From Saccharopolyspora erythraea NRRL 2338 (GTDB lineage: Bacteria > Actinomycetota > Actinomycetes > Mycobacteriales > Pseudonocardiaceae), in the NCBI RefSeq assembly GCF_000062885.1, contig NC_009142.1, positions 5,755,584 through 5,819,583 of the forward strand: DNA of 64,000 nucleotides, in the 5' to 3' direction. Both the position numbers and the translations under genes were made by a program. The notes under the pieces were generated by a model, which ran no database searches, was not told where the DNA came from, and worked only from the letters and a program-made list of their open reading frames with translations. This document shows positions 2,944 through 44,183 of the stretch, in pieces. Position 1 is the stretch's first letter, and every line of letters begins with the position of its first letter.

Positions 2944-3624
2944 TCAGCGCTGGCGGTCGATGAAGCGGCGGGAGCGCCGCTCGATGTCGGCGAAGTGCTG
3001 GGTCATCGCCTCGGCCGCTCGCCCGGCGTCACCGGAGCGGATCGCGTCGACGATCGACTGGTGTTCGCGCCCGATCTCCTCGCGCAACCACTCCGGCGGG
3101 TCGATCTCCTCCTCGACGCGGTGGTAGACGGTCCAGAACAGGTCGATGAGCTGCACCGCGATCTCGTTGCCGACGGGCCGGTACAGCGTCTGGTGGAACC
3201 GCCGGTCGGCCTCCACGACGTCACCGGTTCTGATCTCGGCCACGCAGGACTCCAGTTCCGCCAGGAAGTCCTCGTCGGCGTGCTGCGGCACCTCGGCGAT
3301 CAGCGCGGTCTCCAGGATGCGGCGGATCTGGATGAAGTCGGCCAGCGTCGAGGCGTCCTGGCGGGCCGACTGGCGGGCCCGGAACAGCAGGCCCGGCATC
3401 AGCGCGGTCACGGGTGCCTCGCCGACGAAGGTGCCGTAGCCGTGGCGGATGTCGACGATGCCCAGGGTGTGCAGGGCGCGCAGCGTCTCGCGGATGGAGT
3501 TGCGGCTGGCGCCGAGCTGGGCCATCAGCTGCGGTTCGCTGGGCAGCGGGGAGCCTGGAGGCAGCCCGGACTCCAGGATCAGGTCCACGACTCGGTCCTG
3601 GAGCTGCCTGCCGCCACCAGCCAT
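2944..3624 (-). CDS. FadR-type GntR regulator of the sialic acid genes (NanR-like role)
   Basis: 226 residues. An N-terminal winged helix-turn-helix ([42 protein letters not shown], about 25-66) is followed by an all-helical FCD ligand domain whose metal-type residues include H in RRFHQTLY and GREHQSI. ATG at 3624 is preceded by GGAGG 11 nt upstream. It is divergent from a NanT-like transporter, and a dyad containing GGACATCCTACGTCC lies in the shared promoter. E. coli NanR is also an FCD-type GntR repressor induced by sialic acid; that this protein does the same is inferred from context. Confidence 0.85.
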
Positions 3625-3738
3625 CGATTCCCGTCCCTCCGCCTGCTCCGGTTTGCCCGGTGGTTCGGCGCCCACCGCCGATTCCGGCCACCGCTGAGAA
3701 CAACCTTGCCATCCGCGATGGCCCAGAGTAGCTTGCCT

Positions 3739-3753
3739 GGACATCCTACGTCC
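3739..3753. promoter_or_regulatory. Candidate operator of the sialic acid regulator (nanT promoter)
   Basis: GGACATCCTACGTCC, extended by TATGTCC to an imperfect dyad GGACAT-N10-ATGTCC (3739-3760). It lies 34-48 nt before the nanT start, where the core promoter is expected. The identical 15-mer in opposite orientation is at 13538-13552 before nanA; in both places the sequence reads in the direction of the controlled sugar gene, and TAGCTTGC stands a short way upstream. Confidence 0.65.
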
Positions 3754-3786
3754 TATGTCCGGGGTGTGATGAGCGAGGAGGCTCAG

Positions 3787-5235
3787 ATGGCTGCAACGAG
3801 CGACTCCGCGCGCTGGTACCGGCAGCTCTCGGCCCGCGACTGGAAGGCGTTCTTCGCCGCCTGGCTCGGCTACGCGATGGACGGCTTCGACTTCGTGCTG
3901 ATCACGCTCGTGCTCACCGAGATCAGCGACGAGTTCGGGCTCACCGACGCCGCAGCTGCCGCCCTGGTGTCGGCGGCGTTCATCTCCCGCTGGTTCGGCG
4001 GCCTGGTGCTCGGCGCGGTCGGCGACCGCTACGGCCGCCGGGGTGCGATGATCATCAGCATCGTGCTCTACTCGGTGGGCACCTTCGCCTGCGGGCTGGC
4101 GTGGGACTACTGGCCGCTGTTCGTGGCGCGGCTGGTCGTGGGCCTGGGCATGGCCGGGGAGTACAGCGCGAGCGCGACCTACGTCATCGAGAGCTGGCCG
4201 CGGCGGCTGCGCAACCGCGCCAGCGGTTTCCTGCTCTCCGGCTTCTCGCTGGGCGGTGTGCTGGCCGCCCAGGTCTACAGCTGGGTCGTGCCGTCGTTCG
4301 GCTGGCGGGCGCTGTTCTTCCTCGGGCTGGCCCCGATCGTGATCGCGCTGTGGCTGCGCCGCGGCATCCCGGAGGCCGCCGACTGGGAGCACGCCTCCCA
4401 CGACGAGCCGACCTTCGTCGACGTGCTCTACCAGGGCCGGGCGCGGCCGTGGAACGTGCTGCTGACCGCGCTGGTCGCGGTTTCGCTGTTCGCGTTGTTC
4501 ATCGGCTGGTCGTCGGGTGTGGTCTCGGTGCTGCTCGCGGTGGCGGCCGCCGGTGGTCTGCTCGCCTTCGCCGCGCAGTTCGCGCGGTCGGCGACGCCGA
4601 TGATGGTGACGCTGATCGTCGTGGTGTTCCTGGCGTTCCTGTACTCGTGGCCGATCCAGGCGTTGCTGCCGACCTACCTCAAGCAGGACCTGGGCTACGA
4701 CCCGGGCCAGGTCGCCGACGTGCTGTTCTTCGCCGGCTTCGGCACCGCGGTCGGCTGCGTGCTGGCCGGCTTCACCGGCGACCGGCTGGGCACCAAGCGC
4801 GCCTACACCTGGACGCTGCTGGCCTCGCTGGTGCCGGTGCTGCCGGTGTTCGCGCTCGGCGGCGACCAGCTCGGCTGGATCGCGGTGCTGCTGTTCTTCC
4901 AGCAGATGTTCGGCCAGGGCATCTCGGGCATCCTGCCCAAGCTGGTCGGCGGGTACTTCGAGACCTCCCGGCGCGCGGCCGGGCTGGGCTTCACCTACAA
5001 CGTCGGTGCGCTGGGCGGCGCGGTCGCCCCGGTGCTGGGCAACGCCATCGCCGAGCAGACCGGGCGCGGCGCGGCGCTGGGTGGCCTGTCGTTCGGGCTG
5101 ACCATCGTCGTGGCCGTGCTCATCGCGGTGAACGCCCCCGGGCGGGTGCAGCGGCTCTTCGGCGACGACTCGGGGATGGTCGATCGCACGGTGTCGGGCG
5201 ACGAGGTCGCGCCGGAGCTGCGGACGTCGTCGTGA
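3787..5235 (+). CDS. nanT: Sialic acid:proton symporter, NanT-like MFS transporter
   Basis: 482 residues, close to the 496 of E. coli NanT, with hydrophobic segments throughout. It shares long stretches with my recollection of Nan[16 protein letters not shown], the MFS loop [57 protein letters not shown] and [14 protein letters not shown]. These exceed generic MFS similarity, so N-acetylneuraminate is the likely substrate. ATG at 3787 follows AGGAGG by 5 nt; an upstream in-frame ATG at 3769 lacks a ribosome site. It is divergent from the FadR-type regulator and convergent with the next gene, leaving only 4 nt. Confidence 0.9.
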
Positions 5236-5239
5236 CGGG

Positions 5240-5755
5240 TCAGAACTCGAAGCCGCCGGGCCTGCCGTTGCGGTCGGCGAGCAGGCCGGCCAGCGCGGCG
5301 ATGGCGATCTCGGGCGGGCGGCGCGAGCCGATGTTGAGCCCGATCGGCCGGTGCACCTCGCCGATCGCGTCGTCCTCGACGCCCAGTTCGCGCAGCGCGG
5401 CGACGTGCGGTGCCGGGTGGCGGGGGTTGCCCAGCACTCCCACCCAGCGGACCTGGTGCGCCAGCACGTCGCGCAGCATCGGGCCCAGCTCCGGGCGGTG
5501 GTGGTCGGTCACGATGACGTCGGTGTCACCGCCGATGCCGGTCACCTTCCCGACCACGTCGGCGCCGGTGTCGCCCACCTGGGCCGCGCGCTGCGGGTCG
5601 GGCTCGACGAGCAGCGTCCGGTACCCGAGGTCCCGGCCGTACCGGAGCAGGTAGCGCGAGACCGGTGAGGCGAACACCGCGACCAGGGTCCGGTCGCCGG
5701 TTTCCACCGGTGCGTCGCTGTGCGCCACCTCGCAGGCGGCAACGTCCTCGGCCAT
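5240..5755 (-). CDS. XdhC Rossmann-domain protein (solo)
   Basis: 171 residues from ATG at 5755. The C-terminal pattern VGVLGNPRHPAPHVAALRELGV followed by RPIGLNIGSRRPPEIAIAALAGLLA is the XdhC/CoxI Rossmann-domain signature (GALGSRRT...PIGLDIGARTPAEIA). XdhC proteins bind and sulfurate molybdenum cofactor for xanthine or CO dehydrogenases. The usual N-terminal XdhC domain is missing and no molybdenum hydroxylase gene is present in the window, so its partner is unknown. A longer start (to 5836) is open but rich in Pro/Arg and lacks support. Confidence 0.75.
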   Translation of the reverse strand: MAEDVAACEVAHSDAPVETGDRTLVAVFASPVSRYLLRYGRDLGYRTLLVEPDPQRAAQVGDTGADVVGKVTGIGGDTDVIVTDHHRPELGPMLRDVLAHQVRWVGVLGNPRHPAPHVAALRELGVEDDAIGEVHRPIGLNIGSRRPPEIAIAALAGLLADRNGRPGGFEF

Positions 5756-5844
5756 GCCTGGAGTCTGGCAGGTGCGGCGGGTTCGAGCCACCACCCCGGG
5801 CGCGGGCCGCTCCGGGCCGGGCCAGGGGTTCTTCACAGGTCGTT

Positions 5845-6627
5845 TCAGGATAAGGTTCGTGGGCCCGGGGCCTGCCTATCTACTGGTACCGGCGTGCCGA
5901 ACCGGACAGGAACTCCCGGTGAGTAGAGCACGCTGACCGGCGATGTGGCCGGTGCGGACAATCCGGCCGCGGTGACGAGGCTGTCGTCCAGATCGAGCAA
6001 TTCGGCGTGGTGCAGGGGCCACTGCGGGTGTTCGTTCGGCAGATACCACGTGCGGCCGTACCAGGACACGTGCAGACCCCACCGGGCGGTCAAAAACCGT
6101 TCCAACCCACCCTGTTCGACGATCGGCGGCCCTACTCTGGCAACGACGCGACTGGTCACCTCCCGCGGTCCAGGCCACCTGCGACGGGAGGTATAGGTGA
6201 TCACATCGCCGTCGCGGTCCAGCCGCATCTTCGACCACACGTAAGGCAGCCGCACGCCGACCCGGCCCACCACGACGGGCAACAGCCGGGCCGCATCCAG
6301 AGATCGGAACACCACCCCGCGACGGCCGGCATCGTCCACCGAATACAGCCTCACGTTGGTTTCGCAGAACGACCCGAAATACGGCACTCCCGGCCCTGCC
6401 GGCAGATCCACACGGTGCATGCGGAACGGGACCAGCCCCACATAGGTAACGCCGTCCAGGACGTCCGGCCGGGTACCAGGCGGCAGCAGACCGGCCACTC
6501 GCGCCGGTTCCACCGGCCAATGCAGGAACATCAGCTCGCGCCACTCCTGCACGAGCGTTGACCTCCGCACCGGCCGCGGAGAACGCGAAGTGATCGGCTC
6601 AACCGCCATACCGCGCAGCCGTATCAC
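5845..6627 (-). CDS. DUF2071 (YqjF-like) family protein
   Basis: 260 residues from GTG at 6627, with AAGGAG placed about 10 nt upstream. It carries the DUF2071/COG3361 pattern: Q-EWRELMFLHWPVEPARVAGLLPPG near the N-terminus, GVTYVGLVPFRM, then FCETNVRLYS and GVVFRSLDAARLLPVVVGR, and a C-terminal PLHHAELL. The fold is thought to resemble acetoacetate decarboxylase, but no activity has been firmly assigned to the family. It lies 89 nt upstream of the XdhC-domain gene in the same orientation and may share its transcript. Confidence 0.8.
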   Translation of the reverse strand: MIRLRGMAVEPITSRSPRPVRRSTLVQEWRELMFLHWPVEPARVAGLLPPGTRPDVLDGVTYVGLVPFRMHRVDLPAGPGVPYFGSFCETNVRLYSVDDAGRRGVVFRSLDAARLLPVVVGRVGVRLPYVWSKMRLDRDGDVITYTSRRRWPGPREVTSRVVARVGPPIVEQGGLERFLTARWGLHVSWYGRTWYLPNEHPQWPLHHAELLDLDDSLVTAAGLSAPATSPVSVLYSPGVPVRFGTPVPVDRQAPGPRTLS

Positions 6628-6690
6628 GGCAGTGGATCTCCTTCAAGAAGCACGACAGCGGTCCACTGCGCAGCCATAGCGCCTTGCAAC

Positions 6691-6721
6691 TCGGCGAGCC
6701 CGGAGCGAGAAGGCGTCTGAG
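6691..6721. repeat. Second copy of the dispersed 31-bp intergenic repeat
   Basis: Matches 2504-2534 at 29 of 31 positions (core CGGAGCGAGAAGGC). Like the first copy it lies between genes, here between the lipoprotein stop and the DUF2071 start. Confidence 0.6.
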
Positions 6722-6751
6722 GTTCGCCGCAAGCCACTGCTGGAACATTCC

Positions 6752-7300
6752 CTATCCACCGACGGAGGTGCCCGACGTGCCGGTGCCGAAGCCGCCCCGC
6801 GGGATCGTGCCGCCCGTGGTGGGGACGCTGCCCGCCCGGCCGACCGCGGCGGTCTGGCCGGAGGGGCCGGTCTTCGGCGTGGTGTAGCTGCCGCCGCTGA
6901 CCCGGGTGCCCACCGGTGCGGCGAAGGCGCCGGCCGAGGTCGAGTAGTGGTACCAGAGGGCGGCGACGCCCACGTGCTGGCCGGAAACGTCGGTGTAGTC
7001 GGTCGGTGCGTCCTCGCAGTCCTCGTCGGGCAGCCGGACCTCGGTCTCCGGGTCGACGCACACCGCGACGTGGTCCCAGTTCTGCACGTCGTCGGTTTCG
7101 CTGGTCGTGGTCTCCGTCGTGGTGGTCTCGGCCGTGGTGGTCGGGGTCGCCGTCTCGGTCGTCGGGGCCGCCGTGGTGGGGACCGGCCCGGAGGAGGTGC
7201 TGTGCGCGCCGCCCACGCACCCGGACGCGAGGTAGAACGCCGCCACCCACGGCACCAGCCGGACCATCGGGACCGCCGTCCCGCGCAGCGACTCGGACAT
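6752..7300 (-). CDS. Secreted lipoprotein with Thr-rich linker
   Basis: 182 residues from ATG at 7300, which has GGAG about 10 nt upstream. The N-terminus carries a hydrophobic stretch ending in the lipobox YLASGC (Cys about 28), so it should be lipidated and membrane-anchored. A linker of about 35 residues is almost only Thr, Pro and Glu. The next part contains VCVDPETEVRLPDEDC and WYHYSTSAG, a short Cys-bearing segment seen in uncharacterised actinobacterial proteins, and the end is Gly/Ser/Thr-rich. Function unknown. It lies just after the GH42 gene in the same orientation, across a 124-nt gap. Confidence 0.75.
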   Translation of the reverse strand: MSESLRGTAVPMVRLVPWVAAFYLASGCVGGAHSTSSGPVPTTAAPTTETATPTTTAETTTTETTTSETDDVQNWDHVAVCVDPETEVRLPDEDCEDAPTDYTDVSGQHVGVAALWYHYSTSAGAFAAPVGTRVSGGSYTTPKTGPSGQTAAVGRAGSVPTTGGTIPRGGFGTGTSGTSVGG

Positions 7301-7424
7301 CGCCGCCTTCTCCGACGTTTCTTCCCACGTACCTGTGCCTAACCGGTCGATCATCCCGGGCAGCATAGGAACGCATCCGGCCGCCTGTACTCCATTCGGG
7401 GAAAGTCACCGCTTGACCAGCGGA

Positions 7425-9437
7425 TCACCGCTCCACGGGCTTGAGGACGGCGACTCCGCGCGGGGGCAGGGTGACCTCGGCGGCCTGTGCGCCGGTGAGC
7501 AGGTCGGCCGCGGGCCACGGCAGCCGCACCTTCACCTCGACCGCGTTGTGGTTGAGCAGGAAGAAGAACTCGCCTCGGCGGGTCGCCTGCACTCCGGCGG
7601 GCAGGTCCGCCAGCACCGGTTGGACACCGGCTTCCGCCGTCACGCGGTCGATCAGCGTGCGCATCGCCTCCGGCTCCGGGCGGGTTGCCAGGTACCAGGC
7701 CGCGCCGTCGCCGAAGGCGTGGCGGGTCAGCGCCGGGTGCCCGGCGAGCGCGCCCTCGGTGAACGTGCCGAGCACGCTCGCACCCTTGGGCTCGATCTTT
7801 TCCGACCACAGCGTCGCGCGGGCGGCGCTGCCGAGCAGTTCCACGCCGATGCCGGCGCCTTCGGCGAGCGGCTGGAACTCCGGGATCCGCAGTCCCAGCA
7901 CCTCGCGCAGCGGGGCCGGGTAGCCGCCGAGGTGCACGCGGTCGTTCTCGTCGACGATGCCGGAGAAGAACGACACCAGCAGGTGCCCGCCGCGCCGGAC
8001 GTGGTCGGTGAGGTTCGCCGCGGTCGTCTCCCGCAGCAGGTAGAGGTTCGGCACCACCACGAGCCGGTAGCCGGACAGGTCGCGGTCGGGGTGCACGACG
8101 TCGCATCCGATGCCGGCATCGAACAGCGGGCCGTAGTGGGCGAGCAACGCGTCGACCTGGCCCAGCTCCGACGGGTGGGAGTCCAGTTCGAGGGCCCACC
8201 AGCTGTCCCAGTCGAGGACGAGCGCGACGTCGTTGTCCGGGCGGGTGCCCGCCAGCTCCCCGGCGGCGGCCAGTTCGGCGCCCAGTTCGGTGACCTCGCG
8301 GAAGGTGCGGGTGTCGGTGCCGGCGTGCGGCACCATCCCGGAGTGGAACTTCTCCGCGCCGCCCGCCGACTGCCGCCACTGGAAGAACAGCACGCCGTCG
8401 GCGCCCTGGGCGACGGCCTGCCAGCTCCACAGCCGCATCTGGCCGGGGGCCTTGGCGGCGTTGCGTGGCCGCCAGTTCACCGCGTTGGGCGCCTGTTCCA
8501 TCAGCAGCCACGGCTGGCCGCCGCGCAGCGACCGGAACACGTCGTAGGACAGGCCGGCCAGCACGTGGGCGCGCGGGTCGTGCGGGTCGGGGTAGGAGTC
8601 GTAGCCGACGACGTCCACTTCGGACGACCACGCGTGCAGGTCCAGGGTCCTGGCCAGCGGAACGTGGTTGGTGGTCACCGGGATCTCCGGCGTGACGCGG
8701 CGCAGGACCGCCTTCTCCATCCGCAGCAGCTCCAGCATGGTGTCCGAGGAGAAGCGGGCGAAGTCCAGCCGTTGCGCCGGGTTGGCGAAGGTCGGCGCGG
8801 TGCGCGGCGGCAGGATCTCGTCGAAGTCGTCGTAGCGCTGGGACCAGAACTTCGTCGACCACGCCTCGTTGAGCTCGGAGACGTCGCCGTAGCGCTCGCG
8901 CAGCCAGTCGCGGAAGGCCAGCGCCGAGCTGTCGCAGTAGCAGGCGCGGACGTGGCAGCCGTACTCGTTGCCGATGTGCCACAACGCCAGCGCTGGGTGC
9001 TGGGCGTAGCGTTCGGCGAGTTTCTCGACGAGCCGCAGCGCGTGCTCGCGGTAGACCGGGCTGGACGGGCAGTACGCCTGCCGGGCGCCCGGCCACAGGA
9101 TGGTGCCGTCGGCGCGTTGCGGCAGCGTTTCCGGGAACTTCCTCGCGAGCCACGGCGGCGGCGAGGCGGTCATCGTCGCGACCGAAGCCGCGACACCGCC
9201 CTCGGCGAGGTTGTCCAGCACCTGGTCGAACCAGCCGAAGTCGAAGTCGCCGGGCCGCGGTTCCACCAGCGCCCAGCCGAAGATGCCCACCGACACCAGG
9301 GAAATCCCGGCCTCGCTCATCAATCGGATGTCTTCGCGCCACACCTCCCGCGGCCACTGCTCGGGGTTGTAGTCCCCTCCGTAGGCGATGGTGGCGATGC
9401 GCTCCCGGAATCGGCGGGCGGCCTGCGGTTCGGTCAA
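7425..9437 (-). CDS. GH42 beta-galactosidase
   Basis: 670 residues, normal for family GH42. The catalytic TIM barrel opens with YGGDYNPEQWP. The acid/base Glu is in WHIGNEYGCH (about E158) and the nucleophile in LLMEQAPNAVNW (about E314). Cysteines at about 123, 161, 166 and 168 resemble the zinc site of GH42 enzymes. A trimerisation-type domain and a small beta domain follow. There is no signal peptide, so it probably cleaves imported galactosides in the cytoplasm. The start is TTG at 9437 overlapping the permease stop as TTGA. Last gene of the nanA operon; it probably removes galactose uncovered by the sialidase. Confidence 0.92.
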   Translation of the reverse strand: MTEPQAARRFRERIATIAYGGDYNPEQWPREVWREDIRLMSEAGISLVSVGIFGWALVEPRPGDFDFGWFDQVLDNLAEGGVAASVATMTASPPPWLARKFPETLPQRADGTILWPGARQAYCPSSPVYREHALRLVEKLAERYAQHPALALWHIGNEYGCHVRACYCDSSALAFRDWLRERYGDVSELNEAWSTKFWSQRYDDFDEILPPRTAPTFANPAQRLDFARFSSDTMLELLRMEKAVLRRVTPEIPVTTNHVPLARTLDLHAWSSEVDVVGYDSYPDPHDPRAHVLAGLSYDVFRSLRGGQPWLLMEQAPNAVNWRPRNAAKAPGQMRLWSWQAVAQGADGVLFFQWRQSAGGAEKFHSGMVPHAGTDTRTFREVTELGAELAAAGELAGTRPDNDVALVLDWDSWWALELDSHPSELGQVDALLAHYGPLFDAGIGCDVVHPDRDLSGYRLVVVPNLYLLRETTAANLTDHVRRGGHLLVSFFSGIVDENDRVHLGGYPAPLREVLGLRIPEFQPLAEGAGIGVELLGSAARATLWSEKIEPKGASVLGTFTEGALAGHPALTRHAFGDGAAWYLATRPEPEAMRTLIDRVTAEAGVQPVLADLPAGVQATRRGEFFFLLNHNAVEVKVRLPWPAADLLTGAQAAEVTLPPRGVAVLKPVER

Positions 9438-10273
9438 GACTTGACGCTCCCTTCGGTGAGCCCGCCCTTCCAGTAGCGCTGCAGGAAGAGCATGGCGATC
9501 ATCAGCGGAACGACCGAGACGAACGCGCCGCCCACCGTCAGCTGGGTGAGCACCGCGTCGCGTTCGGCCGCGGTGGACCACGCCGCCAGTCCCAGCGGCA
9601 GCGAGTACAGGCTGCTGTCGGACAGCATCACCAGCGGCAGGAAGTAGTTGGTCCAGATCGCGACGAACTGGAACAGGAACACGGTCACCAGCGCCGGTTT
9701 CATCAGCCGCAGCACGAGCGTGTTGAAGATGCGGAACTCCCCCGCGCCGTCGATCCGGCCGGACTCCAGCAGCTCGTCGGGGATCGCGGCGTCGGCGTAG
9801 ATGCGCGCCAGGTAGACCCCGAAGGGGCTGACCATGCTGGGCAGCAGCACGCTGGCGTAGGTGTTGGCCAGGCCCAGCGAGCTGAAGATGAGGTAGAGCG
9901 GCAGCGCCAGCACGGTGAACGGGATCAGCACCCCGCCGAGCACCAGGTTGAACACCATTTCCCTGCCGCGGAAGGAGAACTTCGCGATGGCGTACCCGCA
10001 CGCCGCTGACAGCCACGTCCCGGCCAGCGCGCCGACCCCGGCGTAGAGCAGGGTGTTGGCGACCCAGCGCAGGTAGATCCCGCCGTCGTGGCTGAAGAGC
10101 TGCCCGAGGTTGGTCCACAGCCTCGGGTCGGAGAACCACAGCCCGCTGGAGCCGTAGAGGCCGGTGGTCGTCTTCGTGGCCGCCACGGCCAGCCAGTACA
10201 CCGGCAGCAGGAAGTACACCGCCGCGACCGCCAGCACGGCGGTCACCAGGATCTTCGACGCCCGCTCCGGCAT
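9434..10273 (-). CDS. ABC sugar transporter permease (MalG type)
   Basis: 279 residues with about six membrane helices. The cytoplasmic EAA-like loop is ELLESGRIDGAGEFRIFNTLVLRLMKP (about 185-211), which docks on the ATPase. CUT1 family permease; it pairs with the gene just upstream and with the binding protein at 11211. ATG at 10273 overlaps the preceding stop as ATGA, so translation is coupled. No ATPase gene is in the cluster, so a shared MsiK-type ATPase, common in actinobacteria, is likely used. Confidence 0.9.
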   Translation of the reverse strand: MPERASKILVTAVLAVAAVYFLLPVYWLAVAATKTTTGLYGSSGLWFSDPRLWTNLGQLFSHDGGIYLRWVANTLLYAGVGALAGTWLSAACGYAIAKFSFRGREMVFNLVLGGVLIPFTVLALPLYLIFSSLGLANTYASVLLPSMVSPFGVYLARIYADAAIPDELLESGRIDGAGEFRIFNTLVLRLMKPALVTVFLFQFVAIWTNYFLPLVMLSDSSLYSLPLGLAAWSTAAERDAVLTQLTVGGAFVSVVPLMIAMLFLQRYWKGGLTEGSVKS

Positions 10274-11163
10274 CACGCGCCCCTCCTTCCGACCAGCTTG
10301 AGGAACCCGAAGGAGAGCACGAAGCAGGTCACCGCGACGATGATCGACTGCGCGGCGGCCAGCCCGTAGTCGTTGTTGGTGAACGCCTCGGCGTAGGCGC
10401 TCATGTTCGGGGTGTACTCGACGTCGATGTAGCCGCTGAGCGGTTTGAGCAGCAGCGGTTCGGTGAACAGCTGCAGCGTGCCGATGATGCTGAACACCGT
10501 GTTGAGCACCAGGGCCGGGCGGATCAGCGGCAGCTTGATCCGGATCGCGATCTGCCACGCGTTGGCGCCGTCGATGCGCGCGGCCTCCTGCAGCGCGGGG
10601 TCGATGGCGTTGAGCTGGGCGATGATGACCAGCATGTTGTAGCCGGCGTAGGTCCAGGTGACGATGTTGGCGATGGACCACAGGATCGAGCCCGACGACA
10701 GGAAGTCGACCGGGATTCCCAGTGCGGCGAACAGCTCCGAGACCGGGCTGATGCCCGGGGTGTAGAGGAATCCCCACAGGATGGATGCGATGACGCCGGG
10801 CACGCCGTAGGGCAGGAAGTAGGCGCTGCGGAAGAAGCCCTTCCAGCGGGCGGAGGCGGTGTCCAGCAGCAGGGCGAGCACGGTCGCGCCGAGGATCATC
10901 ACCGGAACCTGCACCACGCCGAACAGCAGGATGCGGCCGAACCCGGCGATGAATCCGGGATCTTCCAGCGCCCACCGGTAGTTGGTCAGCCCGCCGAAGA
11001 CGTTATCGGCCCCGCCCAGGCCGAGCGGACCGCTGCGCTGCACCACCAGCAGGCTGCGGTGCAGCGTGTAGAGCACCGGGGCGATGAAGAACGCGAGGAA
11101 CAACAGGAGGAACGGTCCGACGAGGCCGGCGACGGCCACTCTCGTCCCCTTGGTGCGGCGCAT
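10273..11163 (-). CDS. ABC sugar transporter permease (MalF type)
   Basis: 296 residues. A short N-terminal helix (LVGPFLLLFLAFFIAPVLYTL) is followed by a periplasmic-side loop and the conserved permease core, with the EAA loop EAARIDGANAWQIAIRIKLP. It forms the CUT1 permease heterodimer with the next gene, with which it overlaps by 3 nt. Likely substrate, from the neighbouring sialidase, lyase and beta-galactosidase, is a galactosyl or sialyl oligosaccharide; that is inference. Confidence 0.9.
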   Translation of the reverse strand: MRRTKGTRVAVAGLVGPFLLLFLAFFIAPVLYTLHRSLLVVQRSGPLGLGGADNVFGGLTNYRWALEDPGFIAGFGRILLFGVVQVPVMILGATVLALLLDTASARWKGFFRSAYFLPYGVPGVIASILWGFLYTPGISPVSELFAALGIPVDFLSSGSILWSIANIVTWTYAGYNMLVIIAQLNAIDPALQEAARIDGANAWQIAIRIKLPLIRPALVLNTVFSIIGTLQLFTEPLLLKPLSGYIDVEYTPNMSAYAEAFTNNDYGLAAAQSIIVAVTCFVLSFGFLKLVGRRGA

Positions 11164-11210
11164 GCGACTCCTTTGTCAGCGCTGCTCGCGGCCACCGCGA
11201 GCGGTGGCGG

Positions 11211-12536
11211 TCAGGACCGGTGGGGCAGCCCCTTCTTCTCCAGGTCGCGGATGATCCGGGCTTCGGCGTCGACCGCGATCTCGCGCAGGCTCCGCCCGCC
11301 CGCGGCCATCCCCTGCAGCTCGGCGTTGATGTGCTCCAGCGCCTGGTTCGTGGTCGGCAGCCACTTCCAGCTGTTGTCCACCGACTCGCTGGATTCGCGG
11401 AACACGTCGTTGATCCGCTGACCGCCGAAGAAGCCGAACGCCTCGTCCATGGCCGCGACGTGGGAGAGGTCGGCCAGCGCCGGGAATCCCATGCCCTTGA
11501 CGACGAGGTCGCTGACCGTGGCGGGGTCGGTGTTGAGCCACAGCGCGAACTCCAGGGCCTGTGAGGGGAAGCGGCTGCCGCGCACCACCGAGGTGGCCGA
11601 GCCGCCGAGGTTGGTGGTGCGCACCGGACCGGCCGCGTCCCACTGCGGCATCCGCGCCACCGCCCACTTGCCCGCCGTGTTCTCGGCGTTGCCCTCCAGC
11701 ACCTCCGCGTGCCAGTGCGCACCGAGCAGGCTGACGATCCGGCCGTCCTGGACGCTCTTGTAGAAGGCGTTGCCGCTGTTGGGGATGGTGTCGACCAGGT
11801 CCCGGTCGATGAGTCGCTGCCAGAAGGCGGTGACCCGGTGGGTCGCCGGGTTGTCCACGTCGACCACCCACTGCCGCTCGTCGGCGCCGAACCAGATGGA
11901 GCCGGCCTGCCAGCACAGCGCGGACAGGACCTCGGCGTTGTTGGTCGGGAACGTGGTGAGGTAGGCGTCGTGCTCCCGCACCCGCTCGGCGACGCGCTCG
12001 AACTCCTCCCACGTCGCAGGCGGTGTCAGGCCCCATTCGTCGAAGAGGTCCTTGCGGTAGTACGTCGCGACCGGACCGGATGCCTGCGGCACCGCGTAGA
12101 CCCCGCCGCCGAAGCTGACCTGCTCGTAGGTCCAGTCGACGAACTGGTGGCGGTGTTCGCCGACACCGAGCGGGGCCAGGTCGACGAGTCCTCCGTGGAG
12201 CACGGCGTTGGGCAGCTCCATGAACTCGATCTGCACCAGGTCGGGCACGGCCCCTGCTTCCAGCGCGGCGTAGAGCTTCGGGTACGCGCCGTCAGCCCCG
12301 GCGGGGACTTCGACGTAGTGCACCTGGATGTCCGGGCGCTGCCGGTTCCAGGTGGCGACGACCTCGTCCATGCCGGGCACCCACGCCCAGAACTCCAGTT
12401 CCACCGGTTCCCCCGGCATCGCCGGTCGTCCCGGCTGGGGAGCCGGCTGCTGCGTGCACCCGGCGGCGGCGAGCCCGGCGGCCGCGCCCGCGAGCGCGCG
12501 AAGGCCCTGGCGCCTGGTCATCTTCGAGGTCCACAT
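11211..12536 (-). CDS. ABC sugar transporter solute-binding lipoprotein
   Basis: 441 residues. The signal peptide contains TRRQGLRALAG then LAAAGC, a lipobox with Cys at about 27; the twin Arg is compatible with Tat export. The mature part begins VELEFWAWVPGMDEVVATWNRQRPDIQVHYVEV and continues with PDLVQIEF, the pattern of CUT1 (family 1) carbohydrate-binding proteins. It starts 3 nt after the nanA stop, so the two are certainly one transcript, and is followed by the two permeases. The ligand is not readable from sequence. Confidence 0.9.
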   Translation of the reverse strand: MWTSKMTRRQGLRALAGAAAGLAAAGCTQQPAPQPGRPAMPGEPVELEFWAWVPGMDEVVATWNRQRPDIQVHYVEVPAGADGAYPKLYAALEAGAVPDLVQIEFMELPNAVLHGGLVDLAPLGVGEHRHQFVDWTYEQVSFGGGVYAVPQASGPVATYYRKDLFDEWGLTPPATWEEFERVAERVREHDAYLTTFPTNNAEVLSALCWQAGSIWFGADERQWVVDVDNPATHRVTAFWQRLIDRDLVDTIPNSGNAFYKSVQDGRIVSLLGAHWHAEVLEGNAENTAGKWAVARMPQWDAAGPVRTTNLGGSATSVVRGSRFPSQALEFALWLNTDPATVSDLVVKGMGFPALADLSHVAAMDEAFGFFGGQRINDVFRESSESVDNSWKWLPTTNQALEHINAELQGMAAGGRSLREIAVDAEARIIRDLEKKGLPHRS

Positions 12537-12539
12537 AGG

Positions 12540-13487
12540 TCACTCCGGGAGCAGAGCGGCCTCGACCAGGAACCGCCGCACCTCGGCGCGTTCGGCTTCG
12601 TCGAGCGGGATCATCGGGACGCTGGTCGTGCCGTGCTCGATCACTCCCCTGGCCACCAGCGCCTCCTTGAACGCCCCGATCGCCGAGGAGTACCGGCTCA
12701 TCGGACGCCGCATCCCCACCTTGATCAGGTGGAACAGCCCGCGCAGCCGCACCTGCTCGGACTCGGCCAGCGCCCAGTCGCCGGCGGTGGCCGCCCGGTG
12801 CAGCCGCAGGTAGCCGTCCGGGTCGACGTTGCCGAGCCCGGGCACCAGCCCGTGCGCACCGAGCCGCAGCCCGGTGTCGGCCATCGTCTCCGAGCCGCTG
12901 AACACCAGGAACCGGTCGGTGTCGACGGTCTCCAGCACGGTGCGGATACCGTCGAGGTCGTCGCTGGAGTCCTTGAGCCCGGCGAGCGTGCCGTCCGCGG
13001 CGAGCTCGGCGACGGTTTCCGCGGCGAGCTTCGTGCCGACCGACACCGGGATGTCGTAGGCCAGCAGCGGCAGGTCGACCGCCGCCCGGATCCGGCGGAA
13101 GTGCACCGCGATCTCCGCCGGGTGGGTCGGCACGTAGAAGGGCGCCGTCGCGACCAGGGCGTCCGCTCCGTGGCGCCGCGCGGCGCGCGCCTGCTCGACG
13201 ACCCGTGGCGTCGCGGTGTCGATGACTCCCGCCAGCACCGGGACCTGCCCCGCGCTGACCCCGGCCACGACTTCGAGAACGCGGTGGCGCGTGCTGTCCG
13301 GCAGGTAGCCGACCTCGCCGGTCGAGCCGGTGACGAACAGGCCGTGGACGCCCGCGCCGAGCAGGTGCCCGGTCAGCTTCTCCAGCGACGGCACGTCCAG
13401 CTCCCGCTCCGGGGTCAGGGGCGTGCACAGCGGCGGGACGACCCCGCCGGCGATCGGGACCTCGGTTTGCGGACCGGGCTGGGCCAT
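12540..13487 (-). CDS. nanA: N-acetylneuraminate lyase (DHDPS/NAL family)
   Basis: 315 residues forming a single TIM barrel. Family landmarks: pyruvate-carboxylate motif GSTGE (54-58), catalytic Tyr144 in YDIPVSVG, and Schiff-base Lys172 in GLKDSSDD. The family includes sialic acid lyase, dihydrodipicolinate synthase and keto-deoxy-sugar aldolases; sialate lyase (Neu5Ac to pyruvate and N-acetylmannosamine) is chosen because of the sialidase and the shared operator with the NanT-like gene. ATG at 13487 follows AGGAG closely; an in-frame ATG at 13520 is possible. First gene of a five-gene operon. Confidence 0.8.
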   Translation of the reverse strand: MAQPGPQTEVPIAGGVVPPLCTPLTPERELDVPSLEKLTGHLLGAGVHGLFVTGSTGEVGYLPDSTRHRVLEVVAGVSAGQVPVLAGVIDTATPRVVEQARAARRHGADALVATAPFYVPTHPAEIAVHFRRIRAAVDLPLLAYDIPVSVGTKLAAETVAELAADGTLAGLKDSSDDLDGIRTVLETVDTDRFLVFSGSETMADTGLRLGAHGLVPGLGNVDPDGYLRLHRAATAGDWALAESEQVRLRGLFHLIKVGMRRPMSRYSSAIGAFKEALVARGVIEHGTTSVPMIPLDEAERAEVRRFLVEAALLPE

Positions 13488-13537
13488 TGCGCTCCTCGGA
13501 CTGGTGGTCGATTCGACCATTGTGGGCATCACACGTG

Positions 13538-13552
13538 GGACGTAGGATGTCC
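13538..13552. promoter_or_regulatory. Candidate operator of the sialic acid regulator (nanA/sialidase promoter)
   Basis: GGACGTAGGATGTCC is the exact reverse complement of the 15-mer at 3739-3753. It lies in the 177-nt divergent region, about 50 nt upstream of nanA and 113 nt upstream of the sialidase start. A second small dyad, GGTCGATTCGACC, is at 13506-13518 in the nanA leader. Confidence 0.65.
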
Positions 13553-13664
13553 TGCGATGTGTGCAAGCTAGCGGGCGGGCCGGGCGATGACAAGTGGTCG
13601 TCCGAACCGGGACGCGAGTGGCCGCACCGTCGAACATCCGGCGTCAGAAGGGTTTTCGGCGTCC

Positions 13665-15599
13665 ATGAACCGATTCCGCCCCGCTCGACCGTCCGCTGAC
13701 CACCGACCGGAGCCCGCCTGCCGACCGCGCGCCGCGCACCGGCTGCGGGTGCTCGCTGCGGCCGTCGTGACCGTGACCGCGAGCAGCGTCCTGGCCGCAC
13801 CCGCCCACGCCGCCGGCCCACCCGGCGGTCCGGCGGACTTCACCGAACAGGCGCTCTACGCCCGGGGACTGGCCGGTTACGCCTGCTACCGGATCCCGGC
13901 CATCGTCCGGACGACCGCCGCCACCCTGCTGGCCTTCGCGGAGGCACGGCGCAACGACTGCGGCGACGACGGTGACGTGGACCTGGTCGTGCGGCGCTCC
14001 ACCGACGGGGGCCGGACCTGGGGCCCGGTCCAGCTCGTCGGCGACAACGGACCCCACACCTTCGGCAACCCGGTTCCGGTCGTGGACGCCGCTACCGGCC
14101 GCGTCGTCCTGGTCACCACGCACAACCCCGGCGACGTCGACCGCGACCGCACCGTCCACGTCCAGCACAGCGACGACGACGGCCGGACCTGGAGCGCGCC
14201 CCGGGACATCACCGCGCAGGTCAAGGACCCTGCGTGGGACCGCTGGTACGCGACCGGGCCGATGCACGGCATCCAGCTCACCCGCGGCGAGCACGCCGGA
14301 CGGCTCGTGGTCGGCGCATCGCACGAGTCGGCCGACGAGCGCCAGGTCGGCGGTCACCTCGTCTACAGCGACGACGGTGGGCTCAACTGGCGGGTGGGCG
14401 CCAACGCCGAGCACCGGCCCGACACCATCAAGCCGCAGGAGATGAGCGTGGTGGAGCTGGTCGACGGCCGCGTGTACGCCGCGGCGCGCGACCAGGGCGG
14501 CACCGATCCCGGGCACCGCGCCTTCGCCGTCTCCGCCGACGGCGGCGAGACGTTCGAGAAGCCGTTCCGCACGATCCCCGAGCTCCAGACGCCGATCATC
14601 CAGGGCTCGGCGCTGCGCTGGCGGGCCGTCGACGAGGGCGACGCAGGCAACCGCATCCTGTTCTCCGCACCCGCCCACCCGGCCGGGCGCGAGGCCATGA
14701 GCATCCGCTCGTCCTACGACGAGGGCGGGAGCTGGGAGAGCTGGCAGGACGGCAAGATCGTCCACTGGGGACCGTCCGGGTACTCCGACCTCACCGCGAT
14801 CGACGAGGACACGATCGGACTGCTCTACGAGCGCGGCAAGGGAAATCCGTACGAGGAGATCGTGCTCGCGCGCTTCGGCGAGGCGTACCTGGAGCAGCCC
14901 AACGGCACACCGCCGAACTTCCCGGAGCCGCCCGCGCCGGGTCCGACGACTCCGGACGTGTCGAAGAACGCGCACACGGCGTACGTGCGAGGAACGCCCG
15001 GCCTGACCGAGGGCCGGTTCGGATCCGCGTTGGCGGCCACCGGCGGGCAGCACGTGCACGTCCCGCTCACCGACGAGCTCGACCTGCGCTCCGACGACTT
15101 CACCGTCACGGCGTGGTTCTCCTACGACCAGACCGCCGGAGCGCACACCCTCCTCTGGGCCTACCGGATGGGTTCGGAGAACACCCCGCAGCTGTGGCTG
15201 CGCGCCGAGCCGGGGAGCAACCGCATCCGCGCGCACCTGGCGGCCGAGGAGGGGCACGCCACCATCGCCTCGACGTCGGCGTTCAACGACGGGCGCTGGC
15301 ACCACGTGGTCCTGCAGCGCGGCGGCGGGCGGTTCCGGATGATCGTCGACGGTGCCGAGGTCGCCGTCGCGGCGGCTCCGCTCGGCTCGGTGTCGGCCGG
15401 CGGCGCGGAGTTCGGGATCGACGGCGTCCACATCGGACAGCGGGTGGACGGTGCCGACCGCTGGCACGGCGCGCTGGACGAGGTCCGAGTCTACCGGCGG
15501 GCGCTGCCGCGGGGCCAGCTCGACGCGATCCGGGCGGTGAACCGCCCGATCGGCGCGGGCCTGGAACTGCGGCTGCCGCTGGACGGGGTGGGCCGATGA
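13665..15599 (+). CDS. nanH: Secreted exo-alpha-sialidase (GH33) with C-terminal LamG-like domain
   Basis: 644 residues. A signal peptide (RLRVLAAAVVTVTASSVLAAPAHA) is followed by the six-bladed sialidase domain: YRIP motif at 75-78, acidic segment RNDCGDDGDVD, and Asp-box copies STDGGRTW, SDDDGRTW, SDDGGLNW and SADGGETF. A Pro-rich linker (PEPPAPGPTTPD) leads to a concanavalin/LamG-type beta-sandwich (DFTVTAWFSY...DGRWHHVVLQR...ALDEVRVYRRAL). It releases terminal sialic acid outside the cell. ATG 13665 is preferred as it begins a normal signal peptide. Divergent from nanA and overlapping the next gene (ATGA). Confidence 0.93.
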   Translation: MNRFRPARPSADHRPEPACRPRAAHRLRVLAAAVVTVTASSVLAAPAHAAGPPGGPADFTEQALYARGLAGYACYRIPAIVRTTAATLLAFAEARRNDCGDDGDVDLVVRRSTDGGRTWGPVQLVGDNGPHTFGNPVPVVDAATGRVVLVTTHNPGDVDRDRTVHVQHSDDDGRTWSAPRDITAQVKDPAWDRWYATGPMHGIQLTRGEHAGRLVVGASHESADERQVGGHLVYSDDGGLNWRVGANAEHRPDTIKPQEMSVVELVDGRVYAAARDQGGTDPGHRAFAVSADGGETFEKPFRTIPELQTPIIQGSALRWRAVDEGDAGNRILFSAPAHPAGREAMSIRSSYDEGGSWESWQDGKIVHWGPSGYSDLTAIDEDTIGLLYERGKGNPYEEIVLARFGEAYLEQPNGTPPNFPEPPAPGPTTPDVSKNAHTAYVRGTPGLTEGRFGSALAATGGQHVHVPLTDELDLRSDDFTVTAWFSYDQTAGAHTLLWAYRMGSENTPQLWLRAEPGSNRIRAHLAAEEGHATIASTSAFNDGRWHHVVLQRGGGRFRMIVDGAEVAVAAAPLGSVSAGGAEFGIDGVHIGQRVDGADRWHGALDEVRVYRRALPRGQLDAIRAVNRPIGAGLELRLPLDGVGR

Positions 15600-16327
15600 G
15601 CGCGCTCGGCTGCGCGGTGGTCACGGGTGCCGCGTCGGGTATCGGCGCGGCCGTGCTGCGGTGCTTCGCCGGGGCGGGGAACCCGGTTCTGGGCGTGGAC
15701 GTCGACGACTCCGGGCGCCGGCTGGCCGCTGACCTGGCGGCCTCCGGCGCCGAAGCCACGTGGATCACCGGCGACGTGGCCGTCGAGGAGACCTGGCAGC
15801 GGGTGGCCGAACGGACTCCGCGCATGCACGTGCTGGTCAGCAACGCCTACGCGGTGGCGGTGAAGCCGCTGCACGAGACGGCGCCCGAGGAGTGGCGGCG
15901 GCAGCTCGCGGTGAACCTCGACGCCGCGTACCTGGGTTTCCGGGCGTGCCTGCCCGCCCTGCGGGCAGGTGGTGGCAGCGTCGTGCTGGTGTCGTCGGTC
16001 CACGCGCACGCGGGCATCCCCGGTCACGCGGCGTACGCGGCGAGCAAGGGCGCGCTGCTGTCGCTGACCGGTCAGCTCGCCGTCGACTACGGGCCCGGGA
16101 TCCGGGTCAACTGCGTCCTGCCGGGTCCGATCGCGACCGCCGCGTGGGACCGGGTCGACGCCGAAGGGCGCGAGCGGAGCGCGGCGAGCACCGTCATGGG
16201 CAGGCTCGGCGAGCCGGCCGAGGTCGCCGCGGCGGTGCACTTCCTGGCGTCCGCGCAGGCGTCCTACATCACCGGGAGCAGCCTGGTGGTCGACGGCGGC
16301 TGGACGGTTCGCAAGGACTCAGCCTGA
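15596..16327 (+). CDS. Short-chain dehydrogenase/reductase
   Basis: 243 residues. Cofactor motif TGAASGIG (about 10-17), D in GVDVDD favouring NAD, and catalytic Ser/Tyr/Lys in LVSSVHAHAGIPGHAAYAASKGAL. The usual NNAG is changed to SNAY. The C-terminus YITGSSLVVDGGW is typical of classical SDRs. Its ATG overlaps the sialidase stop by 4 nt, so it is co-translated with a secreted sialidase; an oxidoreductase acting on a sialic acid or other liberated sugar is a reasonable guess but not shown. It overlaps the following convergent gene by 9 nt. Confidence 0.88.
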   Translation: MSALGCAVVTGAASGIGAAVLRCFAGAGNPVLGVDVDDSGRRLAADLAASGAEATWITGDVAVEETWQRVAERTPRMHVLVSNAYAVAVKPLHETAPEEWRRQLAVNLDAAYLGFRACLPALRAGGGSVVLVSSVHAHAGIPGHAAYAASKGALLSLTGQLAVDYGPGIRVNCVLPGPIATAAWDRVDAEGRERSAASTVMGRLGEPAEVAAAVHFLASAQASYITGSSLVVDGGWTVRKDSA

Positions 16328-27795: not shown

Positions 27796-29340
27796 GTGGC
27801 GCTGCAGGACCTGGACGAGCTGGCATTCCGACTCCACGCCGACGACAACGTCGTGATCGCCAAAGCCGACGTCGAGCCCGGCTCGTACTCCCGCGGCGGC
27901 ACCGCCGTGGAGGTGCCCGGCGAGGTGCCGCGCGGCCACAAGCTGGCCACGGCCACCATCGAGGCAGGCGACCCGGTCCGCAAGTACGGCCAGATCATCG
28001 GATTCGCGACCCGCGCGATCCGGCCAGGGGAGCACGTGCACACCCACAACGTGCAGTACCAGGAGTTCCAGCGCGACCACGCCTTCGGCGTGGACAGCAG
28101 GCCGACCGAGTACGTGCCCGACGAGCGGCGCGCGACCTTCCAGGGCTACGTGCGGCCCGACGGCAGGGTCGGCACCCGCAACTACCTGGGTGTGATCACG
28201 TCGGTGAACTGCTCGGCCACCGCGGCCAAGATGATCGCCAGGCAGGTCGAGGCGTCCGGGATGCTCGACGACTTCCCCAACGTCGACGGGGTGTGCGCGC
28301 TGACCCACACGCTGGGGTGCGGCAGCGGCGGTCCGGGCAACGAGGGCTTCGAGGTCCTGCGCCGGGCGCTGGTCGGCTACGCCGGGCACCCGAACTTCGC
28401 CGGGCTGCTGGTGATCGGGCTGGGCTGCGAGGTCAACCAGGTCCGCGACCTCACCGAGATGCTCAAGCTGCCCGAGGGCATGCCCGTGCACGCCATGACG
28501 ATCCAGGAGCTCGGCGGCACGAGGAAGACCGTCGCCGAGGGCGTGCGGCGGATCACCGAGATGCTGCCGATCGCCGACCGCGGCCGTCGGCGCACCGTGC
28601 CGGCGTCCGAGCTGGTGATGGCCATGGAGTGCGGCGGTTCCGATGCCTACTCCGGCATCACCGCCAACCCCGCCCTGGGCGCCGCCGCCGACCTGCTGGT
28701 CCGGCACGGCGGCACCGCCGTCTTCGGCGAGACGACCGAGATCTACGGCGCCGAGCACCTGCTCACCCGGCGCGCGGTCAGCCGCGAGGTCGGCGAGAAG
28801 CTGCTGGAGCGCATCGCGTGGTGGGAGTCCTACGTCAAGCGCGACGGCAGCTCCATCAACAACAACCCCTCCCCCGGCAACAAGGCGGGCGGGCTGACCA
28901 CGATCCTGGAGAAGTCCCTGGGTGCCGCGGCCAAGGGCGGCACCACCGACCTGTGCGACGTGGTGCGCTACGCCGAGCCGGTCACCGCCAAGGGCCTGGT
29001 GTTCATGGACACCCCCGGCTACGACCCGGTCAACGCGACCGGCCTGATCGCGGGCGGGGCGCAGCTGATGTGCTTCACCACCGGACGCGGCTCGGCCTTC
29101 GGCTGCAAGCCCGCGCCGAGCCTCAAGCTCGCCACCAACACCCCGCTCTACGAACGCATGACCGACGACATGGACGTCAACTGCGGGACCATCGCCGACG
29201 GGGACTCCGACGTCGAGGAGATGGGCCGGGTGATCTTCGAGCGCGTCCTCGCGGTCGCCTCCGGCGAGGCCACCAAGAGCGAGGAGCTCGGCTACGGCGA
29301 CGAGGAGTTCGTGCCCTGGCACCTGTCCACGGTGCTCTGA
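27796..29340 (+). CDS. Altronate/galactarate dehydratase (UxaA/GarD family)
   Basis: 514 residues from GTG 27796 with AAGGAG about 8 nt before. An N-terminal SAF domain (about 15-85) is followed by the catalytic UxaA/GarD region: GYVRPDGRVGTRNYLGVI, NCSATAAKMIA, THTLGCGSGGPGNEG, LVIGLGCEVNQ, MECGGSDAYSGITANPALG and SINNNPSPGNKAGGLT. These enzymes dehydrate altronate or galactarate to keto-deoxy acids using iron. Length is nearer to GarD, so galactarate is possible. No partner dehydrogenase or aldolase is adjacent; the nanA-like lyase at 12540 belongs to another operon. Confidence 0.88.
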   Translation: MALQDLDELAFRLHADDNVVIAKADVEPGSYSRGGTAVEVPGEVPRGHKLATATIEAGDPVRKYGQIIGFATRAIRPGEHVHTHNVQYQEFQRDHAFGVDSRPTEYVPDERRATFQGYVRPDGRVGTRNYLGVITSVNCSATAAKMIARQVEASGMLDDFPNVDGVCALTHTLGCGSGGPGNEGFEVLRRALVGYAGHPNFAGLLVIGLGCEVNQVRDLTEMLKLPEGMPVHAMTIQELGGTRKTVAEGVRRITEMLPIADRGRRRTVPASELVMAMECGGSDAYSGITANPALGAAADLLVRHGGTAVFGETTEIYGAEHLLTRRAVSREVGEKLLERIAWWESYVKRDGSSINNNPSPGNKAGGLTTILEKSLGAAAKGGTTDLCDVVRYAEPVTAKGLVFMDTPGYDPVNATGLIAGGAQLMCFTTGRGSAFGCKPAPSLKLATNTPLYERMTDDMDVNCGTIADGDSDVEEMGRVIFERVLAVASGEATKSEELGYGDEEFVPWHLSTVL

Positions 29341-42222: not shown

Positions 42223-42250
42223 AGCAGTTCCTTCACGTCCGTCGTGGCGG

Positions 42251-44119: not shown

Positions 44120-44183
44120 CGTTCCTCCACCCCGCACAGCGGGTCGCTCGATCCCGTTCGGCCGCAAGAGAGCCCGCTCGTCG

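Follow-up and report, generated by a model that had tools for sequence, protein, structure and literature searches.

What use does a bacterium make of a secreted sialidase when its genome has neither of the known epimerases for N-acetylmannosamine (ManNAc), the sugar that a sialic acid lyase leaves behind? The question is raised by a locus of Saccharopolyspora erythraea NRRL 2338 with genes for a sialidase, a sialate transporter (NanT), an N-acetylneuraminate lyase (NanA), an ATP-binding cassette (ABC) importer, a GH42 beta-galactosidase and a short-chain dehydrogenase/reductase (SDR). By the window we mean the whole stretch of 64,000 bases that was analysed, positions 5755584-5819583 in the single contig of 8,212,805 bases that makes up the genome (completeness 100). 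The locus lies in it as two blocks, regulator and NanT at 2944-5235, and GH42-permeases-binding protein-NanA with sialidase-SDR at 7425-16327. On the sequence evidence the locus is real and conserved, with strong signs of common control; it is a new assembly of known components. We believe it is quite probably a single NanR-controlled regulon for the Sia-Gal (sialic acid-galactose) ends of sialylated glycans. Such a compact regulon would handle the glycan tip as one nutrient, under a predicted operator. Its features, in window coordinates, are these:

2944..3624, minus strand: NanR-type GntR/FCD regulator (PF07729, PF00392)
3706..3734, plus strand: promoter-like site of nanT, TTGCCA-N17-TAGCTT (pattern scan of the 64 kb)
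3739..3753, plus strand: operator GGACATCCTACGTCC, 4 bases past the -10 element and 33 bases ahead of the nanT start
3787..5235, plus strand: NanT, predicted sialate:H+ symporter of the major facilitator superfamily (NF003024)
7425..9437, minus strand: GH42 beta-galactosidase (PF02449/PF08532/PF08533), with a TTG start overlapping the permease stop
9434..10273, minus strand: ABC permease, CUT1, MalG/UgpE-like (PF00528), start set by comparison with locus L051
10273..11163, minus strand: ABC permease, UgpA/MalF-like (PF00528)
11211..12536, minus strand: sugar-binding lipoprotein like the galacto-N-biose/lacto-N-biose (GNB/LNB) binding protein (PF01547, SBP_bac_1), with a Tat-like RR and lipobox found by eye
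12540..13487, minus strand: NanA, putative N-acetylneuraminate lyase of Corynebacterium glutamicum type (5c54 match), start at an ATG preceded by AGGAG
13538..13552, minus strand: second operator GGACATCCTACGTCC, 12 bases past the nanA -10 element
13565..13593, minus strand: promoter-like site of nanA, TTGTCA-N17-TAGCTT (pattern scan of the 64 kb)
13665..15599, plus strand: secreted GH33-type sialidase (PF13088, BNR) with C-terminal LamG (PF13385, Laminin_G_3), signal peptide by eye
15596..16327, plus strand: SDR, probable D-galactose 1-dehydrogenase, start overlapping the sialidase stop as ATGA

Domain and NCBIfam scans find every gene that an earlier note on this DNA had described in the two blocks. 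The sialidase-SDR pair is divergent from the minus-strand nanA-binding protein-permeases-GH42 run. Sialidase and SDR overlap by ATGA at 15596 and permease and GH42 by TTGA, so each of these pairs may be co-translated. The whole locus is present in one genome of the same genus, at 92-98% identity per gene and 99% for one permease.

Common control is suggested by the DNA ahead of the genes. The earlier note had claimed a motif common to both blocks, and the claim holds across the genome: the 15-base pattern GGACATCCTACGTCC, with R at position 5, has two exact copies in 8.2 Mb, both in the two blocks, and there are no sites with one mismatch. The 24 sites with two mismatches are at chance level, since a reversed control pattern gave 33 matches. 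Just upstream of the two operators are the only two sites of the form TTGNCA-N16-18-TAGCTT in the 64 kb, both with N17, and the same promoter-like form occurs in L051 (same genus) and in two Allokutzneria loci, L131 and L132. The gaps between nanR and nanT in relatives hold related sites, with 11 to 15 of the 15 bases matched. A matrix trained on 19 of these gaps from other genera, the window's genus left out, ranks the window operators first (29.3 and 29.2 bits). Below them, at 17.2 to 8.6 bits, come positions within the two regions that overlap these sites or lie close to them, and the best score elsewhere is 8.2. In Saccharopolyspora shandongensis (L154) an exact copy of the operator stands ahead of a nanA-GH42 pair (27.4 bits). 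Counted by gene across the 79 named loci other than L156, a motif of at least 14 bits is found upstream of NanR in 65/73 cases, NanA in 47/78, sialidase in 16/48 and GH42 in 5/11, and upstream of NanT in 6/33, the solute-binding protein (SBP) in 0/6, NanK in 0/27, NanE in 0/22 and other genes in 54/938. No site above 7 bits occurs at L052 (GH42-ABC-SDR-dgoD) or at L127 (the genome's own dgo genes), both of them outside the regulon. We name the regulator NanR-type by its place and operator only; its gene is divergent from nanT in many relatives.

NanT passes the curated model NF003024 (741 bits, cut-off 604), by which we take it to be a sialate:H+ symporter; it misses a second sialate symporter model, TIGR00891 (418.5 bits, cut-off 552.9). 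The best solved relatives of the lyase are 5c54 (242 bits) and 5c55 (240 bits), and the alignment with 5c54 matches Tyr and Lys as well as the Ser that replaces Arg138 of dihydrodipicolinate synthase (DHDPS). The 5c54 entry fits CgNal, because its Tyr138, Ser143 and Lys166 agree with the CgNal numbering given in PMC5380162. CgNal is the N-acetylneuraminate lyase of C. glutamicum, which according to that paper has been assayed, has an extra DHDPS activity and carries Ser where DHDPS has Arg138. By homology and by this set of active-site residues the window enzyme would be a lyase of the same type. Its nearest named relative is 82% identical and comes from S. shandongensis (the search may omit the closest records), and relatives at 51-55% identity (L135, L138, L139) sit in nanR-nanT-nanA clusters where nanE follows two genes later. 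Against the sialidase 1eur the window's sialidase scores 140.8 bits, compared with 75.7 against the anhydro-sialidase and 56.5 against the trans-sialidase. In the alignment to 1eur the Arg triad and the Glu/Tyr pair are in register and the acid/base Asp, by our reading, is one column off, these being the roles we take the residues to have. Triad, pair and Asp-boxes (as BNR matches) together make up the set of a putative GH33 enzyme.

On the galactoside side, GH42 carries its catalytic, trimerisation and C-terminal domains, and its best solved structure is 9ta3 (701 bits). The binding protein's best solved relative is the GNB/LNB binding protein 2z8d (163 bits, E 9e-47). The cluster has no ATPase gene for the ABC importer, whose ATPase is presumably shared with other systems.

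The SDR is the gene whose role must be read from its relatives. These were found in 40 of 150 family genomes, its own included, at E<=1e-40 with 18 candidates scored per genome, and 38 of the 39 other genomes were compared (G060 left out). A galactonate dehydratase gene (dgoD) lies within 2 kb of the SDR in 33 of the 38 loci, on the same strand in the 32 with the SDR called; DgoA is in the stretch in 20/38 and a GH27, GH36 or GH42 galactosidase in 16/38. Five loci are without the dehydratase (L051, L069, L071, L072 and L088). At L052 the SDR gene and GH42-ABC-SBP point away from each other, with a DgoR-like regulator and dgoD behind the SDR and no nan gene in the stretch. The link to galactonate dehydratase is one of the relatives' loci and not of the window locus itself. 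At 2.88 Mb, some 2.9 Mb away from the SDR gene, the window genome has dgo genes of its own: DgoD (687.5 bits, cut-off 311), DgoA (259.6, cut-off 207) and a DgoK-like kinase, for which NCBIfam gave no match at the threshold applied and whose name comes from its sequence. A second dgoD-like stretch (genome 4516344-4517139, L128), with matches in separate pieces and one stop, is probably a decayed copy. The window SDR falls inside a 38-row clade with support 100/98. Because of the dgoD neighbourhoods of its relatives and the genome's own dgo genes, we read it as a D-galactose 1-dehydrogenase, an assignment we hold to be fairly likely.

In two of the loci without the dehydratase, L071 and L072, the SDR adjoins nanR-nanT-nanA and a GH59 galactocerebrosidase-like gene. 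The GH59-like gene (L071:15095-16924, L072:10519-12435; only the L071 copy was domain-scanned) is divergent from SDR/DgoR and near nanR-nanT-nanA. This would be a second case of sialic acid genes coupled to the release of galactose, and it is suggestive of ganglioside use.

The scheme we propose runs as follows. With no inducer, NanR would sit on GGACATCCTACGTCC just past the two matching promoters and keep nanT and the divergent nanA-ABC-GH42/sialidase-SDR block off. On induction the secreted sialidase would release sialic acid, which NanT would take up and NanA would cleave to pyruvate and ManNAc. The lipoprotein-dependent ABC importer would bring in the desialylated beta-galactoside for cleavage by GH42, and the SDR would oxidise the galactose to galactono-lactone, which would pass to the dgo genes at 2.88 Mb. 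The sequences show the gene families, the operators and promoter-like sites, the conservation of the clustering and the dgo genes; we infer the repression, the inducer and the substrates of importer and SDR. Much of this logic was already in the earlier note (a sialidase acting outside, NanT for sialic acid and an ABC importer for the desialylated galactoside, then NanA and GH42 in the cell, all under one regulator), and it gains support from the unique common operator, a contiguous Allokutzneria cluster, the S. shandongensis operator before nanA-GH42, and the likeness of the binding protein to the GNB/LNB protein and of the lyase to 5c54. The proposed part of the SDR in galactose oxidation goes beyond that note, as does the absence of NanE and of N-acetylglucosamine 2-epimerase (AGE) from the whole genome.

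How far is the assembly shared? NanA loci were taken as the best 80 of at least 566 relatives, with genes predicted by a codon-bias caller (it missed the SDR of L054, which tblastn detected). Two Allokutzneria loci, L131 (the same genome as L156, G067) and L132 (G034), have one contiguous sialidase-nanR-nanT-nanA-sialidase-SBP-permeases-GH42 cluster, without the SDR. Since the corresponding nan genes are contiguous there, the split into two blocks may be a Saccharopolyspora rearrangement; between the blocks lie XdhC-like and DUF2071 genes (window 5240-6627, minus strand). In six Streptomyces loci nanR-nanA is accompanied by the same permeases and binding protein, four of these loci with sialidase and nanT (L172, L198, L220, L225), one with sialidase (L194) and one with neither called (L195); a reductase-like gene adjoins the permeases in these same six related loci. 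The earlier note had called the combination uncommon, which stands in part: 10 of the best 80 NanA loci have both a sialidase and GH42.

Neighbours of nanA were also counted with and without nanE. In 98 loci (nanE assigned by hand in L135-L141, with NanE coordinates inside all seven stretches), GH42 is within 8 kb of nanA in 15/69 nanE-less loci vs 0/29 with nanE (p 0.0045 by Fisher's test), the SBP for galactosides in 10/69 vs 0/29 (p 0.031) and the sialidase in 36/69 vs 12/29 (p 0.38), p values that are only indicative because the loci are related. When the 19 of 98 loci cut within 8 kb of nanA and the duplicate L156 are dropped, GH42 gives 12/51 vs 0/27 (p 0.006) and the SBP 6/51 vs 0/27 (p 0.087, above 0.05). 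As for other neighbours, nanR-nanT-nanA in L129, L130, L133 and L143 (two other genera) is beside a gene for a protein of about 1119-1145 residues; that of L133 has NAGPA phosphodiester glycosidase and metallophosphatase domains and that of L143 reads alike. A record titled Rhodococcus rhodnii NRRL B-16535, with a 12.4-Mb genome, has about the same gene order and lengths as a Kibdelosporangium aridum record (L157/L168), and its label may be wrong.

This leads to the ManNAc step. There is no nanK in the locus. The earlier note had proposed looking for nanK and nanE elsewhere in the genome, and that search gives no match in the complete genome to NanE (PF04131; the control was positive in 8/14) or to AGE (NanE-II, PF07221), and seven relatives of the ROK kinases, the best 37% identical to the nanK-position protein of a relative. 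The locus is neither of the E. coli type (clustered nanA/nanK/nanE) nor of the Bacteroidetes type (AGE/NanE-II). It is not alone in this. NanT (E<=1e-80) is found in 59/390 family genomes, 46 of them without NanE over cut-off and 38 without both NanE and AGE over cut-off. None of the 8 at 72% identity or more, the window genome included, has NanE; all 10 at 58-63% over most of the protein have it over cut-off, as does G346 with a partial match at 58%; the remaining 40 include 2 with NanE. Among 50 genomes picked for a nanA locus without nanE (50/58 such loci), NanE is elsewhere over cut-off in 16 and not in 34, and 28 have neither NanE nor AGE over cut-off, one of these with a NanE match below it; completeness is unstated for the 50, so some of these absences may be assembly gaps. 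Gene families confined to nanE-less loci (in at least five) are GH42, its permeases and binding protein, the NAGPA-type gene (five loci) and flanking-type genes of related strains, such as histidine-kinase-like, RND-type and LeuA-like genes and an F420/NADP-reductase-like gene in six loci. Families in at least five loci were looked over by eye for a ManNAc enzyme beside nanA, and none was taken as a candidate. The gap is one of genomes with lyase, transporter, sialidase and NanR operator and neither known epimerase. If ManNAc is used, a new enzyme awaits; if it is not, this is a strategy of partial use.

It is important to set out what weighs against the regulon as we propose it. With NanE and AGE absent, known enzymes do not complete the branch for sialic acid. 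The regulator falls short of the NCBIfam NanR cut-off (best model PRK03837, 101.6 bits, cut-off 260) and the lyase of both E. coli-type NanA cut-offs (TIGR00683, 94 bits against 382; NF003164, 106.8 against 281). According to PMC5380162, CgNal cleaves N-acetylneuraminate (Neu5Ac) more poorly than E. coli NanA, and its DHDPS activity counts here too. Over the 79 named loci the SBP genes show no enrichment of the motif upstream, nor do the NanT genes in a rank test, and the enrichment before GH42 is not significant (rank test p 0.10, n=11). The stem that leads to the window SDR has 0.73 changes per column, the protein deviates at 6 of 90 columns that are conserved at 90% or more among 34 relatives, and the two Allokutzneria genomes, which belong to the 150-genome set, are not among the 40 with SDR matches. 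GalK is present in the genome, so galactose need not be oxidised.

Several other explanations deserve a hearing. The lyase might be a DHDPS, or an aldolase for 2-keto-3-deoxy-sugar acids in galactose oxidation, with the sialidase incidental; it has the DHDPS fold, it scores higher with NCBIfam dapA (136.8 bits) than with nanA, both below cut-off, and the link of SDR to dgo would suit such a role. The match to 5c54 and its active-site residues, the relatives that sit with nanT and nanE, and the DgoA aldolase already present elsewhere in the genome make this very improbable to our minds. An importer of 2,7-anhydro-Neu5Ac (ST7-like, SBP_bac_1) in place of a galactoside importer has a precedent in actinobacterial nan clusters of six species (PMC8754123). 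We think it hardly likelier, given a binding protein closest to the GNB/LNB protein, a sialidase closer to 1eur than to the anhydro- or trans-sialidase, and an importer that is co-oriented with GH42 and that in L052 is found with GH42 and dgoD and no nanA in the stretch.

Two more alternatives concern ManNAc. The SDR could be an N-acylmannosamine 1-dehydrogenase, an enzyme known from Flavobacterium, that takes the ManNAc made by NanA into an oxidative branch without epimerase; no paper came up when the literature was searched for 'N-acylmannosamine dehydrogenase'. Of the regulon's catabolic enzymes the SDR alone has been given no partner in the branch for sialic acid, both epimerases are absent, the SDR gene overlaps that of the sialidase, and the protein is on a long stem and has Ala at position 179 (start Met uncounted), where a Leu is conserved, in the GP...AWD stretch. 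Set against this are the dgoD and galactosidase neighbourhoods of its relatives, the nan-free setting of L052, and its presence near nanA in only 1/80 named loci, and we regard the idea as unlikely. Sialic acid might instead be half used, NanA harvesting the pyruvate while ManNAc is excreted or left, with desialylation serving mainly to open galactosides. The tie of GH42 to nanE-less loci, which survives the recount, speaks for it, and in nanE-less loci no obvious ManNAc enzyme was seen among the families that occur near nanA in at least five loci. Half use is wasteful, and ManNAc build-up would push back a lyase of a type that favours synthesis more than other N-acetylneuraminate lyases do (PMC5380162); the statistics come from related loci, and the reductase-like gene beside the Streptomyces permeases is a further point against it. 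We judge it possible, on the doubtful side. Only a little more firmly, we suggest that many actinobacteria may catabolise sialic acid without NanE or AGE, through a novel ManNAc enzyme or a ManNAc-oxidising SDR, and that NanR regulons like this one could be the visible half of a third pathway missed by nanE-based surveys. For the window locus itself our preferred account is still the regulon for Sia-Gal ends with a galactose-oxidising SDR.

Farther along the window, by sequence reading, are a UxaA/GarD-like sugar-acid dehydratase gene (27796-29340, plus strand) and methylmalonate-semialdehyde dehydrogenase-like and IolD-like genes (40729-44167, minus strand), which we read as an inositol catabolism block.

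Our literature searches turned up no paper that we recognised as being on this locus, which is no proof that none is in print; for S. erythraea with sialidase they returned papers on other subjects, going by their listings. Li and Huang 2022 (PMC8754123) define the pathway as clustered nanA/K/E, or nanA and nanE-II plus rokA, and count 9/247 Pseudonocardiales strains with it; under that definition loci of the present kind go uncounted. A word-start search of the main text of PMC8754123 gives no mention of a galactosidase. PMC10570557 takes nanE as the marker and allows that microorganisms with a partial pathway might have their own way. As far as these two papers set out their markers, surveys that use nanE in this manner would leave out such genomes.

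How does the locus compare with known systems? In canonical actinobacterial nan clusters nanA/K/E are within 10 ORFs (PMC8754123); the nanR-nanT-nanA order and the operator are common to relatives with nanE in the cluster, whereas the window genome is without nanE. The C. glutamicum cluster cg2929-cg2940, as described in PMC4974736, is alike in its GntR-family regulator and in a NanA of the same type (5c54). The C. glutamicum genome, our control, matches the NanE family and the window genome does not. Uptake of sialic acid in C. glutamicum is by an ABC system, where our locus has NanT, and the window regulon adds the sialidase, GH42, the galactoside-type ABC importer and the SDR. The binding protein resembles GL-BP (2z8d) of the GNB/LNB importer, which we take to be bifidobacterial and coupled to GNB/LNB phosphorylase; in the window it is coupled to GH42 and sialic acid genes. 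The SDR recalls De Ley-Doudoroff galactose oxidation through its relatives beside galactonate dehydratase and through the genome's own dgo genes, and it differs from that system in being a dehydrogenase gene placed within a sialic acid regulon, far from the dgo genes it would serve.

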